Of a stretch of DNA of 64,000 nt, positions 3,360 through 53,144 are shown one piece after another. A program made the position numbers and the translations under genes. The notes beneath the pieces were generated by a model, which searched no databases, was not told the origin of the DNA, and saw only the letters and a program-made list of their open reading frames with translations. The DNA comes from Syntrophothermus lipocalidus DSM 12680. Lineage in GTDB: Bacteria; Bacillota; Syntrophomonadia; Syntrophomonadales; Syntrophothermaceae. Location of the stretch: the NCBI RefSeq assembly GCF_000092405.1, contig NC_014220.1, forward strand, positions 1,984,001 to 2,048,000, written 5' to 3'. The first letter of the stretch is position 1; the number at the start of each line of letters is the position of its first letter.

Positions 3360-4622
3360 ATGAGGCGCTTGCTTTTCCTTGCTTTAACTGTGATGATTAC
3401 CGTGGCCGGTGGTTTTGCACTGCCGGCCTTCGCTCAGGAACAGCAGAAAATTCCCGTCCTGATTGACGGGCTGCCGGTTACCTTTGACGTGCAGCCGGTC
3501 ATCCAGAACGGGCGCACCCTGGTTCCCTTCCGAGCGATAGCGGAAGCGTTGAACGTAAAGGTTACCTGGGACGGCACTACTCAAACGATAAGTGCTACGG
3601 ACGGGAAAACCTCTATCCGGCTCCAGATTGGGAATAAGACCGCCTACCGCAATAACTCCCCTATCCTCCTAGACGTTCCTCCGCAAATTCTTAACGGCAG
3701 GACGATGATACCGTTGCGGTTCTTCAGCGAAGCCCTTAATTGTAAGGTGGATTGGGATAACTCGATTAACGGGGTCAGGATTACCTCCCCGCCCAAAGAG
3801 ATGGCGGTAATCGGGTTCTACGCCCTGGGCGACAGCAAGACCAGCAGTTGGACTAACCTCTTTAGGATGCCGTACCCGGAAACTGCCAGCGGAAACACCG
3901 ATGTAGTAGCTGAACTGGCGCTGGGCTGGTACAGTCTGGACAAAGGTGGCAACCTCCTGACCAAAAGCCGAACAGGCTGGCAAAGGCCGGATAGTTGGGA
4001 GAAGGTGCTGGAAGCAGCTAGGGAGTACAACCTGAAAACCGAAATGGTGGTCCACGTGACTGACGGTGACGGCACGATTTCGTCCCTGTTAACGGATGAT
4101 GCTGCCATGACCAGGGCGGTTAATGGTATAATGAGAGAAGCGGTACTATACCAAGGAGTAAACCTGGACTTTGAGGGTTTGGGCTACCGAGATGACGGTG
4201 AGCAGTTAAAGGTGGTGCAGGGCTCTTTTACCAGGTTCGTCCTGCTCTTAGCGGAACAGGTTAAGGCTGCTAACCTCACACTAACCCTCACCCTCCACGC
4301 CCCGAACAGCGCCTATCACGGTTACGATTACAAGGCGCTGGGAGAATTGGCTGACCGGATTATCATCATGGCCTACGACTACGGCTCCACGCCGGAGCCG
4401 GTAAGCCTTGTCACTCAAGCAGTGGAGATAGCTAGGGCTAATGTTCCATCGGAAAAGCTGGTACTCGGAATTTCTGCCCCCACGGAAACAGCGGAAAGCA
4501 TTCTAACGAAGGTAGGCATTGCCAAGCGGTACGGGCTTGACGGTATCGCCATTTGGCGGTTAGGTCTAGTGACCGGTGAGATGTGGGATGCGTTGAGGGC
4601 TACCGTAATACCACGGAGGTAA
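3360..4622 (+). CDS. Secreted GH18-family hydrolase with copper amine oxidase-N domain
   Basis: The ATG at 3360 follows AGGAGGTTAAAA and opens a signal peptide ending near PAFAQ, so the 420-residue product is exported. Residues about 28-140 contain two NGRTLVPFR / NGRTMIPLRFF motifs of the copper-amine-oxidase N-terminal (cell-surface stalk) domain. Residues about 145-415 resemble glycoside hydrolase 18 enzymes of the YaaH/SleL spore-cortex type, with the catalytic-strand motif VNLDFEG and a later MAYDYG motif. The likely substrate is peptidoglycan or another N-acetylglucosamine polymer. On the mobile element it may help cell-wall passage, but this is speculative. Confidence 0.8.
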   Translation: MRRLLFLALTVMITVAGGFALPAFAQEQQKIPVLIDGLPVTFDVQPVIQNGRTLVPFRAIAEALNVKVTWDGTTQTISATDGKTSIRLQIGNKTAYRNNSPILLDVPPQILNGRTMIPLRFFSEALNCKVDWDNSINGVRITSPPKEMAVIGFYALGDSKTSSWTNLFRMPYPETASGNTDVVAELALGWYSLDKGGNLLTKSRTGWQRPDSWEKVLEAAREYNLKTEMVVHVTDGDGTISSLLTDDAAMTRAVNGIMREAVLYQGVNLDFEGLGYRDDGEQLKVVQGSFTRFVLLLAEQVKAANLTLTLTLHAPNSAYHGYDYKALGELADRIIIMAYDYGSTPEPVSLVTQAVEIARANVPSEKLVLGISAPTETAESILTKVGIAKRYGLDGIAIWRLGLVTGEMWDALRATVIPRR

Positions 4623-11967: not shown

Positions 11968-12257
11968 AGCCACAGATTTACACAGATGTTCACAGATGAA
12001 CACTGATATTGAATTGACGCAGATTTAAGAGGATTTAAAATTTAGAATTGAGATTTGAGAGTTGAGAATTAAAGCTTGTGATTAAGAATCTGTGCTTAAA
12101 GATGGTACTGTATATCTACTGCTGCTGTTGCCATATCTTAATTACACTAATCATAATTTGCTATGATTTCAACTATTCATAATTTTAATCTGCGTTAATC
12201 TGCGTCAAAAACAAAAATCTGTGTAAATCTGTGCCCCATCTGTGTCCATCTGTGGCT
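11968..12257. repeat. Dispersed repeat, inverted pair 1
   Basis: The left arm (11968-12031) reads GCCACAGATTTACACAGATG and continues to GACGCAGATT. The right arm (12186-12257) is the complement type, AATCTGCGTTAATCTGCGTC ... CATCTGTGGCT. The AT-rich middle holds no gene. The right arm supplies the stop codon of the epimerase gene. Confidence 0.85.
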
Positions 12258-13393: not shown

Positions 13394-13588
13394 AGCCACA
13401 GATAAACACAGATTATCACAGATTGACACTGCTTACGATTAGACGCAGAATGACGCAGATTTAATTGTACGCAATAATGTAATCGTACCCTGTGGGTGAA
13501 TGCTATGTTTTGCATTTTATTCTATAACCGTCTGTTGTCTGCGTTAATCAGCGTCAATTATAAAGAAATCTGTGCAAATCTGTGGCCC
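13394..13588. repeat. Dispersed repeat, inverted pair 2
   Basis: The left arm at 13394-13463 (AGCCACAGATAAACACAGAT ... GACGCAGATTTAA) and the right arm at 13535-13588 (CTGCGTTAATCAGCGTC ... AAATCTGTGGCCC) are in opposite orientation, with about 70 bp of AT-rich DNA between them. Confidence 0.85.
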
Positions 13589-14036: not shown

Positions 14037-14166
14037 CCACAGATACACATTAGATTGTCACTGATTTACACTGATTGATGAAAGTAATTGAGATGCACAA
14101 TAGCGTAGATACCTTTATAATGATAATCTGTGCTCATCTGTGCCTATCAGTGTCCATCTGTGGCTC
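14037..14166. repeat. Dispersed repeat, inverted pair 3
   Basis: The left arm (14037-14078, CCACAGATACACATTAGATT) and the right arm (14122-14166, ATAATCTGTGCTCATCTGTG ... GGCTCC) flank about 45 bp. This is one of the shortest paired copies. Confidence 0.8.
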
Positions 14167-16413: not shown

Positions 16414-16656
16414 AGCCACTGATTGACACAGATGGGGCACAGATTAACACAGATGTAATCAATAATTAACATAATGATAATCATTTATAAATAACGTGAT
16501 ATTTCAGCGAGTAAATCGCGCCCAATTCGCGAATACGATGGATTGCGCCTCATTCTACATCTGCTGTCTGCGTTAATCAGCGTCAAACTAATAAAAATTA
16601 TCTGTGTAAATCCGTGAAAATCTGTGTTCATCTGTGGCTTGTGTTTATCTGTGGCT
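16414..16656. repeat. Dispersed repeat, inverted pair 4
   Basis: The left arm is 16414-16460 (AGCCACTGATTGACACAGAT) and the right arm 16564-16656 (CTGCGTTAATCAGCGTC ... CATCTGTGGCTTGTG). It separates the tetR gene from the RND gene and provides the RND stop codon. Confidence 0.85.
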
Positions 16657-20956: not shown

Positions 20957-21178
20957 TAGCCACAGACGATCACATATTTGGAACCACAGATGGACACTGA
21001 TGGGCACTGATTAACACAGATAACGAGTGGGAAACTAATATAAAACCCGTAGGGATGTTTCGAATGTCTGGTGGAGCACTAACAGGCGATTTCCAGAGAA
21101 ATCAGAGGTTCTAATAATTTCACCAAATGTCATCAGTGAACATCTGTGTTAATCTGTGTGCATCTGTGGCTTGTGGCT
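20957..21178. repeat. Dispersed repeat, inverted pair 5
   Basis: The left arm is 20957-21023 and the right arm 21130-21178 (ATCAGTGAACATCTGTG ... GCATCTGTGGC). It lies between the adaptor and TolC genes and starts within 10 bp of the TolC stop codon. Confidence 0.85.
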
Positions 21179-25454: not shown

Positions 25455-25478
25455 AAATCTGCGTAAATCTGCGTCTAA
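25455..25478. repeat. Dispersed repeat, single short arm
   Basis: AATCTGCGTAAATCTGCGTC is a two-unit copy without a visible partner, between the vapBC operator and the S-layer-like gene terminator. Confidence 0.65.
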
Positions 25479-25483
25479 GGATA

Positions 25484-25524
25484 AAAGAAGGCCCGGATCG
25501 TGAGATCCGAGCCTTTCTTTTTGC
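25484..25524 (-). terminator. Terminator of the S-layer-like gene
   Basis: GAAGGCCCGGATC and GATCCGAGCCTTTC pair around GTGA. T-runs follow on both strands, so it may work in both directions. Confidence 0.8.
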
Positions 25525-28045: not shown

Positions 28046-28292
28046 AGCCACAGATGCACACAGATTTTGCACTGATGAACACAGATTTTCTTTATCATTG
28101 TATTAGGGGCCTTGGTGTTGGCGGTTGGCGCTTCCCATCGACTCCAAGGCTGCTCCGTGGCAGGAAGGGTCTCGTTATCTCTGCTTTTATCAAACAGGGT
28201 CATTCCATTCATCTGTGGTCATCTGTGGTCATCTGTGGTCATCTGTGGTCATCTGTGGTCATCTGTGATAATCTGTGTTTATCAGTGGCTCA
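28046..28292. repeat. Dispersed repeat, inverted pair 6, with tandem 10-bp units
   Basis: The left arm is 28046-28090 (AGCCACAGATGCACACAGAT) and the right arm 28209-28292. The right arm contains five consecutive copies of CATCTGTGGT (about 28210-28260), a local tandem expansion. Confidence 0.85.
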
Positions 28293-28371
28293 AGTTGAGG
28301 GAACTTTTTGTGAAATATCTGTGTCTAAATACATAGCCGGGTCTTTCCCGGCGTGTCAGGAGTGTCTGACG

Positions 28372-28953
28372 TTGGGTAAATACAATAACGAAGCTAAGGA
28401 CCTGGTGAAAAAGGCGCAAGCTGGAGACCTGCGAGCGTTCGAGAAGCTGGTCATTTCTTACCAGGATAAGGTGTTCAGCCAGTGCTACCGGCTCACCGGG
28501 AACTACGACGATGCCCAGGACCTGGCCCAGGAGGTTTTCGTCCGGGCCTACCGGGGGATAGGGTCTTTCAGGAGCGACGCGGACCTCGGCACCTGGCTGT
28601 ATAGGATAGCGGTCAACCAGTATCTGAACTCCCGGCGTCGGGAGAAGGATAATGTAATCTCCCTGGATGAACCGGTGGATACCGGCGACGGTGAGGTGGC
28701 TCGCCAGGTAGCAGCGGCCGCGGAGGACCCCCTCGAGGAAGTGGAGAGGGGGGAACTCCGGGAACTGGTCCTGGCAGGGCTGGCCCGGCTTCCGGCGGAG
28801 TTCCGGGCGGCGTTGACGCTGCGGGAGTTCGAGGGCTTAAGCTACGAGGAGATAGCCGAGGTGATGAACTGCTCGGTGGGTACCGTGAGGTCCCGGCTCA
28901 ACCGGGCAAGAAAGGCTTTGCGGGACTTTCTAGGGCCACAGATAAAGGATTAG
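28372..28953 (+). CDS. ECF-type RNA polymerase sigma factor (SigW-like)
   Basis: The TTG at 28372 follows CAGGAGTG; upstream codons are repeat-derived. The 193-residue protein has region 2 (residues about 15-85: FEKLVISYQDKVFSQCYRLT, DDAQDLAQEVFVRAY) and region 4 (about 130-185: LPAEFRAALTLREFEGLSYEEIAEVM, TVRSRLNRARKAL). The last residues (PQIKD) come from repeat DNA. The cognate anti-sigma gene is 550 bp downstream, separated by the GxxExxY element. ECF factors of this type usually answer envelope stress. Confidence 0.9.
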   Translation: MGKYNNEAKDLVKKAQAGDLRAFEKLVISYQDKVFSQCYRLTGNYDDAQDLAQEVFVRAYRGIGSFRSDADLGTWLYRIAVNQYLNSRRREKDNVISLDEPVDTGDGEVARQVAAAAEDPLEEVERGELRELVLAGLARLPAEFRAALTLREFEGLSYEEIAEVMNCSVGTVRSRLNRARKALRDFLGPQIKD

Positions 28954-29490
28954 ACGCAGATTAATGGCCACAGATGAACACTGATTAGCACAGATTTACA
29001 CAGATGTCTTATGGAATACTTATGTGAAGACATTACGCGAAAAATAATAGGGTGTGCTTATAAAGTACATAATACGTTGGGTTCAGGGTTTTTGGAAAAG
29101 GTCTATGAAAACGCGCTTAAGATAGAACTGGAACGTAATGGCCTGGTAGTAGAGCAGCAGAAACAGATTCAAGTGCAGTACGAAGGCGTGGTAGTCGGGT
29201 ATTATGTACCAGACCTTTTGGTAGACAGTTCGGTTGTCATAGAAATCAAAGCAGCAGACAATATAGACCCGGTTTTTGAAGCCCAGTTACTAAACTACTT
29301 GAAGGCCACTGGCTTGCGAATAGGACTCCTTAATTAACTTCGCTCCTAAAGTGACTATCAAGCGCCGGGTTTTATAGTATCGCTGCTGTTACTCTTAAGG
29401 ATATCACTGTTAATGGGAAGAGATCTGTGTTCATCCGTGGTTATAAGTCTGTGTTAATCTGTGGCTACAAATCAGTGTGCATCTGTGGCT
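28934..29490. mobile_element. GxxExxY element bounded by inverted dispersed repeats
   Basis: Left-type arms (28934-29006, GGCCACAGATAAAGG ... CACAGATTTACACAGATG) and right-type arms (29421-29490, CTGTGTTCATCCGTGG ... CATCTGTGGCT) bracket a single gene encoding a GxxExxY protein. The element separates a sigma gene from its anti-sigma gene, which normally are adjacent. Mobility is inferred from this layout, not shown. Confidence 0.6.
29011..29337 (+). CDS. GxxExxY protein (PD-(D/E)XK-like)
   Basis: The 108-residue product has IIGCAYKVHNTLGSGFLEKVYENAL, which contains the family signature GxxExxY (GFLEKVY), and YVPDLLVDSSVVIEIKA, a D...ExK-like pattern suggesting a nuclease fold. The ATG at 29011 directly follows the repeat arm. 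Typical members are about 125 residues; this one ends at LRIGLLN, so the last strand may be shortened. The family function is unknown to me. Confidence 0.82.
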   Translation: MEYLCEDITRKIIGCAYKVHNTLGSGFLEKVYENALKIELERNGLVVEQQKQIQVQYEGVVVGYYVPDLLVDSSVVIEIKAADNIDPVFEAQLLNYLKATGLRIGLLN

Positions 29491-29505
29491 AAAGAAGGGA
29501 TTTTT

Positions 29506-30549
29506 ATGAACTGTGTCGATGCGAGACAATTGTTTTCGCCCTGGTTGGACGGGGAGCTGGATGAGGCTTCTGCCGTGGCCCTGCGCCTGCACCTGGAAGG
29601 GTGTGGGGAATGCAGTCGGGAACTGGCCTTGTGGGAGGACATGTCTCAGGCCTTGAGGCAGGCCCGGCCCGATGTCGTTGCTCCGTCCGGTTTTGCCGAG
29701 GGTGTAATGGCCCGGCTCAGGGATGAAGCGGCGGCTGGGGAGCCTCGGAAGGCGAAGGTCAGATTCGCCGGCTTCAGGCGCTGGCGCGAGTTCCTGGCAG
29801 TGGCGGCGGCAGCGGCGGTGCTCGTTTTCGGCTGGTGGGCGGTAAAGCCTGATGTCCCGCATCGTCCCGGTGAAGTTGCCCATGAGACGGAGAAACCCCC
29901 GGCAGAAGTTAAGACGGCGGATTCGAGCGGTTCAGATGGATCGGGATCGGTTCAGCAGTCGGGCAATGCGTCAGAGCCTTCTGTCAAGCCGGGGAGCAGC
30001 GCACTTGGCCCGGAGAACGGAGCAGCGTCCCAAGAAGGACAGACAGCCGTCGTAAATCCTGGGCAAACAAGTGCTCCGGTCAAGCCATCGGGAACAACCA
30101 CCCAGGCACGGGTGTTTCTCAATAAGGAACGCAAGATAACCAGCACCCTGGTCCGCTTGTCGGTTGCGGATCTCGGTACGGCCCAGTCGCAGGCCGAGAA
30201 TATAGCTTCCCGCTTCGGAATCAAACCGGAGCTGGTGGCCCAGCAGTCGGCCGGGAGCGAGAAATGGATCGTGTACCGGATGCTGGTGGATCCGGCTCAG
30301 GCGGAAGCTTTGGAAGACGCGGTTATGGGACTGGGTAAGGTGGTCGACTACCAGGAAGAGACCCGGGACGTGACCCAGGAGTTCGCCCGGACCTTGGAGC
30401 AGTACCGGGGCTTGGTAGCCCAGCTCGCCGCGACCGAAGATGCCTCGCAGAAGAGGGAGCTTGAAGCGAAGATTGAGGACCTGGAGGAGCAATTGGTTTC
30501 CTGGGATAACGCCTCCAGCCATCGCGTCATAGTTCTGTGGCTGCAATAA
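29506..30549 (+). CDS. Anti-sigma factor with zinc-finger and DUF4349-like domain
   Basis: The 347-residue protein begins with a ZAS/zf-HC2 anti-sigma domain (residues 1-45: LFSPWLDGELDE, LHLEGCGEC with the HxxxCxxC zinc motif). A membrane helix follows (about 95-115, AVAAAAAVLVFGWWAV), then a Ser/Pro/Gln-rich linker and a C-terminal domain (about 205-345) with a coiled coil and RVIVLWLQ, like DUF4349. It should hold the ECF sigma factor at the membrane. ATG at 29506 is preceded by AAAGAAGGGA. Confidence 0.85.
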   Translation: MNCVDARQLFSPWLDGELDEASAVALRLHLEGCGECSRELALWEDMSQALRQARPDVVAPSGFAEGVMARLRDEAAAGEPRKAKVRFAGFRRWREFLAVAAAAAVLVFGWWAVKPDVPHRPGEVAHETEKPPAEVKTADSSGSDGSGSVQQSGNASEPSVKPGSSALGPENGAASQEGQTAVVNPGQTSAPVKPSGTTTQARVFLNKERKITSTLVRLSVADLGTAQSQAENIASRFGIKPELVAQQSAGSEKWIVYRMLVDPAQAEALEDAVMGLGKVVDYQEETRDVTQEFARTLEQYRGLVAQLAATEDASQKRELEAKIEDLEEQLVSWDNASSHRVIVLWLQ

Positions 30550-30728: not shown

Positions 30729-30748
30729 TAGCTTACGAGGTGAAGCGT

Positions 30749-30832
30749 GTGAAGACATACTCGTCAAGGGAACTGATCCGCTTGATACAGCAAGCCGGTT
30801 GGATGATGGTAGCGGGCTTAGACGAGTCATAA
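30749..30832 (+). pseudogene. hicA: Truncated hicA toxin gene
   Basis: GTG at 30749 with ACGAGGTGA upstream opens KTYSSRELIRLIQQAGWMMV, the first helix and strand of the HicA mRNA-interferase fold. The frame stops at codon 28, before the catalytic SHHxF region. The antitoxin gene starts 31 bp later, and the region between shows no HicA-like codons, so most of the toxin has been deleted. Confidence 0.75.
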
Positions 30833-30863
30833 CACGCAATAATTAGAAAAGGGGGACTCAACC

Positions 30864-31277
30864 ATGGGTAAGGACAAATATGTATATCCTGCCATCTTTG
30901 ACTATGCAAATGACGGCATATCAGTAGAATTTCCCGACTTGCCCGGATGTTACACGTGCGGCGATACTGACGAAGAAGCCCTGTATATGGCAAAAGAAGC
31001 GTTAGCCCTTCACCTTTATGGGTTGGAGGAAGACGGTTGCGCCATACCCGATCCCAGCCCCGCAAACACGATAAAAGCGGAGCCCAACCAGGTGGTGGTT
31101 CTTGTTGAAGCTTGGATGCCGCCTTTCCGTGACGAAATGAAGCACCGATCTGTCAAGAAAACATTGACCATACCCAAGTGGCTTGACGACCTGGCTCGGG
31201 AACATAACGTGAATTTTTCGCACTTACTGCAAAATGCCTTGAAAGAGTATTTGGGTCTTAACGAAAAACAGCCGTGA
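30864..31277 (+). CDS. hicB: HicB-family antitoxin
   Basis: The 137-residue protein has the N-terminal HicB strands and helix (YPAIFDYANDGISVEFPDLPGCYTCGDTDEEAL) and a C-terminal RHH DNA-binding segment (TLTIPKWLDDLAREHNVNFSHLLQNALKEYL). ATG at 30864 follows AAAGGGGGACTCAACC. Its toxin is truncated, so today it may act as a stand-alone repressor or protect against related toxins. Confidence 0.88.
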   Translation: MGKDKYVYPAIFDYANDGISVEFPDLPGCYTCGDTDEEALYMAKEALALHLYGLEEDGCAIPDPSPANTIKAEPNQVVVLVEAWMPPFRDEMKHRSVKKTLTIPKWLDDLAREHNVNFSHLLQNALKEYLGLNEKQP

Positions 31278-37519: not shown

Positions 37520-37744
37520 AGCCACAGATTAACACAGATAAGCACAGATTAACACAGATTATCATCGGATTACCGTAGATGGTCACAGATTATTATAGAT
37601 TGTCGCAGATATTACACATCCCCACGACACTTGAAAGTGTCACCAGTGGCGAATGAAAACCGGGCCGTTGTAATATATGATGGAAAATTCTTGGTTATAA
37701 GACCATCTGTGTTCATCAGTGACCATCTGTGTCCATCTGTGGCT
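37520..37744. repeat. Dispersed repeat, inverted pair 7
   Basis: The left arm is 37520-37612 (GAGCCACAGATTAACACAGAT, several units) and the right arm 37702-37744 (CATCTGTGTTCATCAGTGACC ... CATCTGTGGC). It begins directly after the ParA stop codon (GGATTTAG AGCCACAG) and separates ParA from its downstream gene. Confidence 0.85.
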
Positions 37745-51509: not shown

Positions 51510-52907
51510 TTAGACCCCAGCACCTTTGCCGATCCCAAGCCCGTACCGTTTTATCTTGCGGTAAAGTGAAGAAACATCGATATCCAGGCGAATGGCAGCC
51601 TCCATCTTATTGTAGTCGGTCTCTTCCAAGACACGGGCGATTACCTGTCGTTCGAACTCCTCGGTCAGGGCCTTCAGCCCTTTCCCAAATGAAACCGCAG
51701 ACGCATTTGCCCTGTCGTTCATCAGCACTAAGTACTCAGGGGTTATGGTTTTGGACCCGCTCATCTCTGCAAGAATCAACGCCCTTTCCAAAACATTTTC
51801 CAGCTCACGCACGTTACCCGGCCAGCTGTACTTCATAATCCTTTCCATAGCCGGCGCGGATACCCCCATCACCGACGTTTTTAACTTTTTGTTCAGTTTA
51901 CACAGTAGATACTTAACTAACAGAGGGATATCTCCAGACCGGTGGCGCAAGGCCGGCATGTGGATCCTTACAACATTTAGCCGGTAGTAAAGGTCTTCGC
52001 GGAACCTCCCCTGTTCGACCATTTCTTCGAGGTTGCGATTGGTAGCAGCTATGACCCTCACGTTCACCCGTATCGGTTTGTTGTCTCCCAGCCTTTCCAT
52101 CTCTTTTTCCTGCAACACCCTCAGCAGTTTCCCCTGCATAGCCAAGGACATGTCCCCTACTTCATCCAGAAAAACGGTGCCGCCATTAGCTACCTCAAAC
52201 TTGCCGGGCTTGCCTCCTTTTTTGGCCCCGGTATAAGCCCCTTCTCCATAACCAAATAACTCCGCTTCCAGCAGGTTGTCAGGTATGGCTGCGCAGTTTA
52301 CCTTCACGAAAGGAAATCTGGCGCGGCTTGATGCGCTATGAATCGAGTGAGCCAGCAACTCTTTTCCGGTTCCGCTTTCTCCGGTAATCAGCACCGTGGT
52401 ATCCGGATGGTTTGCTACCTGACAAGCCAGTTTCTTGACCTTCTGCAAAGCCTGTGACTCACCGATGATGGCGTCAAACGTATACTTCGATGCGTACAAA
52501 CTGGTTATTTCCTTCTTATACACGTTTAATTCGTTAACCAGGTTTTCCATTAAGGTCTTGCCGTCCCAAACATCGAGAAATATGCTGTAGGCCAGGCACC
52601 CGACTAGTTCGCCTTTTTTAAACAACGGTATGCTGGAAGCGACTCCTTCGTACCCGTTGATCGGCCAGTAGTAACCGATTATAGCTTTGCCGGTCTTGAG
52701 AACTTCTAAAGTGCGGCTGTTAGGCGTGATCTCACTGACATGCTTGCCCAATGTCTCTTTTTCGGTGCGTTTTAGCATCTTCAGATAGGTCCTGTTGACA
52801 AACACCACGTAGCCTTGTTTGTCGACTATCATTGCGGCTATGTAAGGGACCGTCATAATAGCATCCATGAGAAGTTGTTGTCCATCCAATAGCCATCCCC
52901 CCGCCAT
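51510..52907 (-). CDS. PAS-AAA-Fis sigma-54 dependent activator
   Basis: The 465-residue protein has a PAS domain (about 15-110: VPYIAAMIVDKQGYVVFVNRTYLKML), the AAA+ domain with Walker A GESGTGKE, GEGAYTGA (variant of the GAFTGA loop contacting sigma-54), VFLDEVGDM (Walker B) and an arginine-finger region, then a Fis-type HTH (about 415-460: YNKMEAAIRLDIDVSSLYRKIKRYG). ATG 52907 follows GGGAGGGGTTAAT. It is the natural activator for the two -24/-12 promoters nearby; the PAS domain may sense a fatty acid or redox state. Confidence 0.92.
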   Translation of the reverse strand: MAGGWLLDGQQLLMDAIMTVPYIAAMIVDKQGYVVFVNRTYLKMLKRTEKETLGKHVSEITPNSRTLEVLKTGKAIIGYYWPINGYEGVASSIPLFKKGELVGCLAYSIFLDVWDGKTLMENLVNELNVYKKEITSLYASKYTFDAIIGESQALQKVKKLACQVANHPDTTVLITGESGTGKELLAHSIHSASSRARFPFVKVNCAAIPDNLLEAELFGYGEGAYTGAKKGGKPGKFEVANGGTVFLDEVGDMSLAMQGKLLRVLQEKEMERLGDNKPIRVNVRVIAATNRNLEEMVEQGRFREDLYYRLNVVRIHMPALRHRSGDIPLLVKYLLCKLNKKLKTSVMGVSAPAMERIMKYSWPGNVRELENVLERALILAEMSGSKTITPEYLVLMNDRANASAVSFGKGLKALTEEFERQVIARVLEETDYNKMEAAIRLDIDVSSLYRKIKRYGLGIGKGAGV

Positions 52908-53144
52908 ATTAACCCCTCCCTCTGGCAACCCGCTCCTAGCGCTGGTAAGCAAATGTATTTCACGTTTGCTGCATATATTCATTTAAATAGATAGAACATT
53001 TAAATAGATAGAAGTACCTTTCTGCTTCTTTCAAACAGTTCTATACGTCCATTATAGGGAACAACGACCTCACGCAGGCAACTAAATAGCACCAATTTCG
53101 CAACATTTTTTCCAATAATATGCTATGCGCTTGGAATAGAATTT

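Follow-up and report, generated by a model that had tools for sequence, protein, structure and literature searches.

The genes for an ECF sigma factor and an anti-sigma factor in Syntrophothermus lipocalidus are separated by an insert that we read, at a probability of about 0.7, as a decayed minimal mobile element, composed of a GxxExxY nuclease gene set within arrays of a lineage-specific short unit, with the nuclease most likely driving its movement. The locus lies in the window, the 64,000-nucleotide stretch of DNA analysed here, whose genome comprises 2,405,559 bp in one contig. GxxExxY is an annotated protein family of unknown role, and short-repeat families without a known agent are common in bacterial genomes.

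The interrupted locus and its repeats in S. lipocalidus

The ECF sigma factor gene (28372–28953, plus strand, TTG start, with Sigma70_r2 and Sigma70_r4 matches) is followed by 552 bp before the start of the anti-sigma factor gene (29506–30549, plus strand, with zf-HC2 and anti-sigma family matches). The corresponding gap in two relatives, G001 and G003, measures roughly 55–80 bp and has no GxxExxY gene in it, in agreement with the earlier note, which had proposed an insert of about 550 bp splitting the pair. The left arm of the insert (28937–29007, plus strand) is made up of the units CCACAGAT, ACGCAGAT, CCACAGAT, ACACTGAT, GCACAGAT and ACACAGAT, mostly at 10-nt spacing, with a main stretch at 28966–29005 and further units from 28937. 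The first units of this arm coincide with the final codons of the sigma gene, and the last six residues of the sigma protein (..GPQIKD) are therefore encoded by the repeat; the sigma proteins of the two relatives, with which this tail was compared, have longer and unrelated tails. The right arm (29421–29492, minus strand) consists of the inverted units ATCTGTG, ATCCGTGG, TCTGTG, ATCTGTGG, ATCAGTG and ATCTGTGG. The unit in both arms is 10 nt long, CACAGATnnn or CACTGATnnn, and the two arrays are inverted. Family matches and arm coordinates thus agree with the description of the insert as a GxxExxY gene with a D...ExK pattern between opposed repeat arms; the inverted arrays stand as first described, but there are more units on both sides, the first of them inside the sigma gene.

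The GxxExxY gene between the arms (29011–29337, plus strand; PD-(D/E)XK superfamily, PDDEXK_3/TIGR04256) encodes 108 residues and matches TIGR04256 (E = 2e-38) and PF13366 (E = 4e-38) above the curated cut-offs, at 131 bits versus 35 and 131 versus 22, respectively. The D, ExK and GxxExxY motifs are intact. The reading frame ends after ..GLLN, some 15 codons short of full length. The remainder of the protein, INFAPKVTIKRRVL*, lies in another frame (29333–29377, plus strand), an apparent frameshift towards the end of the gene. The conserved C-terminal NFG..KR tail is therefore absent from the open reading frame, and with it the residues F and R, which are 99–100% conserved across the family. 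With these last codons displaced to another frame, the window copy appears decayed and is probably dead.

Only two GxxExxY matches occur in the whole genome, both between repeat arms. The second (genome positions 1902306–1902458, minus strand) retains both arms but is missing much of the gene, and its end is 93.5% identical to the left-arm end of the window copy over 62 nt; it shows directly how internal deletion produces a non-autonomous element. The pattern YRCWGATNNNYRCWGAT, a pair of units, has 258 occurrences in the 2.41-Mb genome, far above chance, versus 1 for the reversed control. Within approximately 200 kb, 34 left and right arms were joined into inverted pairs of 77–495 bp, many of them starting TAGCCACAGAT-like and finishing ATCTGTGGCTA-like. 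Open reading frames of at least 60 codons lie inside 4 of the 34, one being the GxxExxY gene, and no gene family other than GxxExxY was found within the arms of the gene-free pairs in this set of 34. Such pairs are present in the window at 11971–12254, 13397–13584, 14038–14162, 16417–16636, 20985–21168 and 37523–37741, and also at 28049–28287, directly upstream of the sigma gene, where the right arm is expanded to eight units. The proposal that gene-free pairs are non-autonomous forms of the element is borne out by the internally deleted and arms-only derivatives found here and in other genomes.

Several further features of the repeats were observed. In the pair just before the sigma gene, the right arm contains six near-identical head-to-tail copies of TCATCTGTGG (28204–28294), which suggests a recent expansion of single units within the arm. 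Units of a second family, TCTGCGTTAATCAGCGTC (CGCTGAT/CGCAGAT), at 12189–12224, 13538–13573, 16567–16602 and 25458–25493, adjoin CACAGAT arrays or sit outside them, as if two element lineages were nested. Genome positions 52886–53022 and 749178–749314 share 100% identity across 137 bp or more, repeat pair included, and are probably a piece of a longer recent duplication. Downstream of the anti-sigma gene, at 30740–31277, a HicB-like reading frame (30864–31277) follows a short remnant resembling the start of a HicA toxin (approximately 30750–30832), both read by eye, and is probably an orphan antitoxin.

Arms, empty sites and derivatives across bacteria

A protein-level search recovered a set of 80 GxxExxY loci in which close relatives of the window protein are over-represented; they come from Acidobacteriota, Deltaproteobacteria, Bacteroidota, Planctomycetota, Cyanobacteria, Chloroflexota, Bacillota, Proteobacteria and other groups. 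The 220 nt upstream of each gene were locally aligned to the reverse complement of the 220 nt downstream, with neighbouring open reading frames on the same contigs as controls. Scores of at least 14 were obtained at 56 of 79 GxxExxY loci versus 4 of 186 neighbours (Fisher p ~1e-33), and scores of at least 18 at 41 of 79 versus 1 of 186, so that the flanking repeats predicted for other genomes are present at most loci. The arms share an architecture of units every 9–10 nt, mirrored across the gene and commonly with AACC at the outer edge, and the flanks are most strongly autocorrelated at lags 9, 10 and 20. The unit itself differs among loci (CRCNGAT, CACGAAT, ACAGGAT, CRCNGAG, CACNAAG, CGGAT, GGTGAT and others), known classes being recognised at 84 of 113 loci versus 7 of 113 control positions about 1 kb away. 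Some loci, such as L149, L158, L160 and L163, have no clear arms.

Within a sample of one phylum, a PF13366 match is found in 30 of 398 genomes, a patchy distribution, and most full-length loci, but not all, have arms, with other units. Three genomes (G001, G018 and G292) contain the repeats without a GxxExxY match, which calls for a different agent or an earlier loss in their case. Genomes with at least five matches to the repeat pattern contain PF13366 in 4 of 7 cases versus 26 of 391 others (p = 0.0008), one fixed pattern being a poor test of co-occurrence because the unit changes between lineages. The elements are placed in short gaps just after stop codons, often between co-directional operon genes: at 35 loci with scorable neighbours the median distance from the preceding stop codon to the arms is 8 nt, 31 have an upstream gene running in the same direction as GxxExxY, and at 11 the stop codon of that gene lies inside the arm, as in the window copy. 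A conserved gene neighbourhood around the loci is absent. GxxExxY had no match in 50,697 phage records, one in 2.9 million viral contigs, and was present in 8 plasmid records; given this near-absence from phages and rarity on plasmids, neither of them is its main carrier.

Sites with and without the element were compared among 47 Geothrix genomes, in which ftsA and ftsZ were named by our own reading of translated ends. A GxxExxY element with CACCACGGAGACACGGAG-like ends occupies the ftsA/ftsZ gap in G401, where it is approximately 461 bp long, and in G423, G437 and G436, whereas the gap in aligned relatives without it is roughly 15–30 bp. At the same site G422 contains an internally deleted copy and G412 the arms without the gene. 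The element is also found at another, unlinked gene junction in G412 and G449 (83% and 76% identical, respectively), where the similarity stops at the arms and the reading frame is intact. A second intergenic site (L118/L077; L300–L331) holds a different element, with GGTGAT units, in G401, G402 and G433 and an internally deleted copy of it in G447; in ten aligned relatives the two genes are separated by just a dozen nucleotides or so, and five others have different gene-free sequences with short-unit repeats. Comparison of G402 with G409 at this site showed flanks 96.4% and 94.2% identical enclosing 572 bp versus 22 bp. Most Geothrix species are without elements at both sites, and few carry them. 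A GxxExxY insertion of approximately 730 bp in G305 is likewise absent from its congener G365.

The empty alleles contain no repeats at all, rather than a gene-free pair. Neither a firm target-site duplication nor a defined cut site emerged from the compared pairs, G402 giving one 7-mer at chance level and the flanks of the other pairs being too diverged; for G346, a search of the genus gave no relatives for comparison. Mobility of the element is well supported, and the empty site looked for by the earlier note is found in the two relatives of S. lipocalidus as well as in Geothrix and G365. Its wider claim, that GxxExxY is the coding part of a mobile element ended by these repeats, holds in general form, given the flanks across phyla and the empty sites. 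CACAGAT, however, is only one unit of many, each GxxExxY lineage having its own, and the copy in the window looks inactive. The second Geothrix gap, of about a dozen nucleotides, holds either a GxxExxY element or at least four different gene-free repeat sequences, depending on species, and is an apparent insertion hot spot.

The GxxExxY protein and its possible role in movement

Residues of the motifs G..LE..Y, D, E.K and Q...Y are invariant across 56 aligned members of the family. The series E-D-ExK-QxxxY is the signature of RecB/Cas4/lambda-exonuclease type nucleases. An AlphaFold model of the GxxExxY protein (pLDDT 96.5) gave, as best Foldseek matches, LHK-Exo (3syy), Cas4 SSO0001 (4ic1, TM 0.64), lambda exonuclease (3slp) and AddAB, and the features that define RecB/Cas4-like QxxxY nucleases (E, D, ExK, QxxxY and the core fold) are all found in the family. 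On motifs and modelled fold, the protein is a minimal RecB/Cas4-type nuclease of predicted activity. No separate DNA-binding or integrase domain is recognisable in it, and the PDB contained no useful sequence relative. The element has PDDEXK_3 as its sole gene, with no DDE, HUH, tyrosine or serine recombinase or known transposase family. PADLOC gave weak matches only, to Cas4 and AbiEii, and a defence role was set aside on that account.

The unit varies together with the protein. Nine genomes carry 1–7 GxxExxY genes each, and paralogues within one genome differ in their units, as in a genome with ACAAAG, CGGAT and CACAGAG and another with CACGGAG, GGTGAT and GCGGAG. Protein identity correlates with the sharing of arm 7-mers across 108 loci (Mantel r = 0.26, p = 0.001), a modest correlation in which host relatedness is controlled only coarsely; mean 7-mer overlap rises from 0.003 at 30–35% identity to 0.22 above 70%, and control positions never exceed 0.003. 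The nearest protein from another phylum shares the unit class in 60 of 84 cases, versus a permutation mean of 45 and maximum of 58, the phyla having been labelled manually on the basis of record titles. Since the unit tracks protein similarity across phyla and differs between paralogues, there is evidence, short of proof, that each GxxExxY protein may recognise its own unit.

The element would be one stand-alone RecB/Cas4-type nuclease gene between inverted arrays of a 9–10-bp unit, a spacing that puts successive units roughly one helical turn apart. The nuclease would most likely recognise its own unit array, pair the two ends and cut both; aided by host replication or repair, the DNA enclosed by the arms could then be copied or moved to a new site. 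DNA of any kind between cognate arms could be served in trans, and internally deleted, gene-free pairs would therefore accumulate and outnumber the gene. Nuclease-driven movement, with its binding, cleavage, synapsis, strand-transfer chemistry and mobilisation in trans, is what we infer from sequence and model. The odds are about even that GxxExxY elements constitute a new autonomous class of mobile DNA in many phyla, in which a Cas4-like nuclease of approximately 125 residues would read helically phased 9–10-bp arrays and move itself and its gene-free derivatives in trans, without transposase, integrase or reverse transcriptase; the arrangement of a gene with non-autonomous inverted-repeat elements is already known in kind.

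The excess of repeats over the gene, their occurrence in genomes without a GxxExxY match, and a nuclease without known transposase signature would also suit ordinary miniature elements moved by an unrelated host transposase, with GxxExxY as a passenger or helper. We regard this as unlikely: GxxExxY is the one gene found repeatedly between such arms in unrelated phyla, and a unit that changes with the protein, separate for each paralogue, is unexpected of a passenger. Spread of a homing type, in which the nuclease cuts gene-free pairs and its gene is copied in through the shared arms, the pairs themselves spreading otherwise, seems improbable, because alleles empty of any repeats, instead of a gene-free pair, and the same element at an unlinked site both run against it. 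Gene-free pairs with matching arms are nevertheless plentiful targets, and one Geothrix site occurs with and without the gene in the same architecture (G401 versus G412), so that homing-type copying is a possible extra route into gene-free pairs.

The fold shared with Cas4, lambda exonuclease and AddAB, proteins of immunity or repair, together with the weak PADLOC matches to Cas4, could instead point to a host repair, recombination or defence gene, with the repeats as its regulatory or binding sites and the present pattern a product of loss. The patchy distribution within the sampled phylum, the different insertion sites, the decay products and the lack of a conserved neighbourhood make this very hard to accept, as do the empty sites and the unrelated gene-free elements at the second Geothrix site.

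Relation to known systems

The closest system in arrangement, although its enzyme is unrelated, is that of the RAYT (TnpA-REP) genes and REPINs, RAYTs being HUH/Y1 transposases that act on REP hairpins (PMC3116915, PMC8266576). Both systems combine one gene within inverted short repeats with many gene-free pairs scattered between genes, and in both a repeat family is paired with a protein lineage. GxxExxY differs in being a PD-(D/E)XK nuclease with no HUH/Y1 gene, in having ends that are arrays of 9–10-bp units, and in that one genome may hold several lineages, at sites differing between species. Insertion sequences with their MITEs resemble the GxxExxY elements in terminal inverted repeats, a single gene, derivatives by internal deletion and presence or absence at a site, but the ends of the latter are tandem short units of variable number, and neither a firm target duplication nor a DDE, HUH, tyrosine or serine recombinase was seen in them. 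The RecB/Cas4/lambda-exonuclease nucleases share the fold and the E..D..ExK..QxxxY series, whereas GxxExxY is shorter (approximately 125 residues), is without extra domains and is tied to inverted repeat arrays, not to cas or phage recombination genes.

Geobacter genomes contain multicopy nucleotide sequences, described in the available text of two papers as abundant intergenic families of palindromic and direct repeats (PMC2996986, PMC2700814). These occur in a group in which GxxExxY elements are frequent, and are possible counterparts of the GxxExxY arms; unlike for the GxxExxY elements, no moving gene is named in that text. In the literature searched, three papers name GxxExxY, PF13366 or TIGR04256, one of them in passing beside a CRISPR reverse transcriptase. 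Our search, whose partial coverage makes an earlier mention possible, found no publication linking GxxExxY with repeats, no occurrence of the exact repeat strings and nothing relevant on a Cas4-like nuclease with terminal repeats. The element is apparently very widespread in bacteria and undescribed, with gene-free remnants common in many genomes.

If GxxExxY elements do form a new class of autonomous mobile DNA, they would account for a substantial fraction of the bacterial short interspersed repeats that lack an explanation (such as ..ATCTGTGttc.., ..CTTCGTGtc.., ..CTCTGCGtc.. and ..AATCCTGTt..). The proposed link between nuclease and repeats would also explain insertions that come between closely coupled partner genes, as at sigma/anti-sigma and ftsA/ftsZ, and would show how a mobile element can make use of an enzyme of the Cas4/lambda-exonuclease type. 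Matching every unit to the nuclease that goes with it would make recognition, cleavage and movement directly assayable.

Two further layouts were observed around GxxExxY genes. The genes of Geobacter sp. AOG1 (L119, pairs at 2826–2947 and 3368–3485) and G305 (L153) have, in place of single arms, a complete gene-free pair on each side, those of AOG1 being approximately 81% alike, a layout resembling that of RAYT genes between REPINs. The Syntrophomonas loci L078 and L156 have several tandem copies of the GxxExxY 3′ end plus arm, with GTCAGCG units, around the gene, which is a different, tandem mode of spread.
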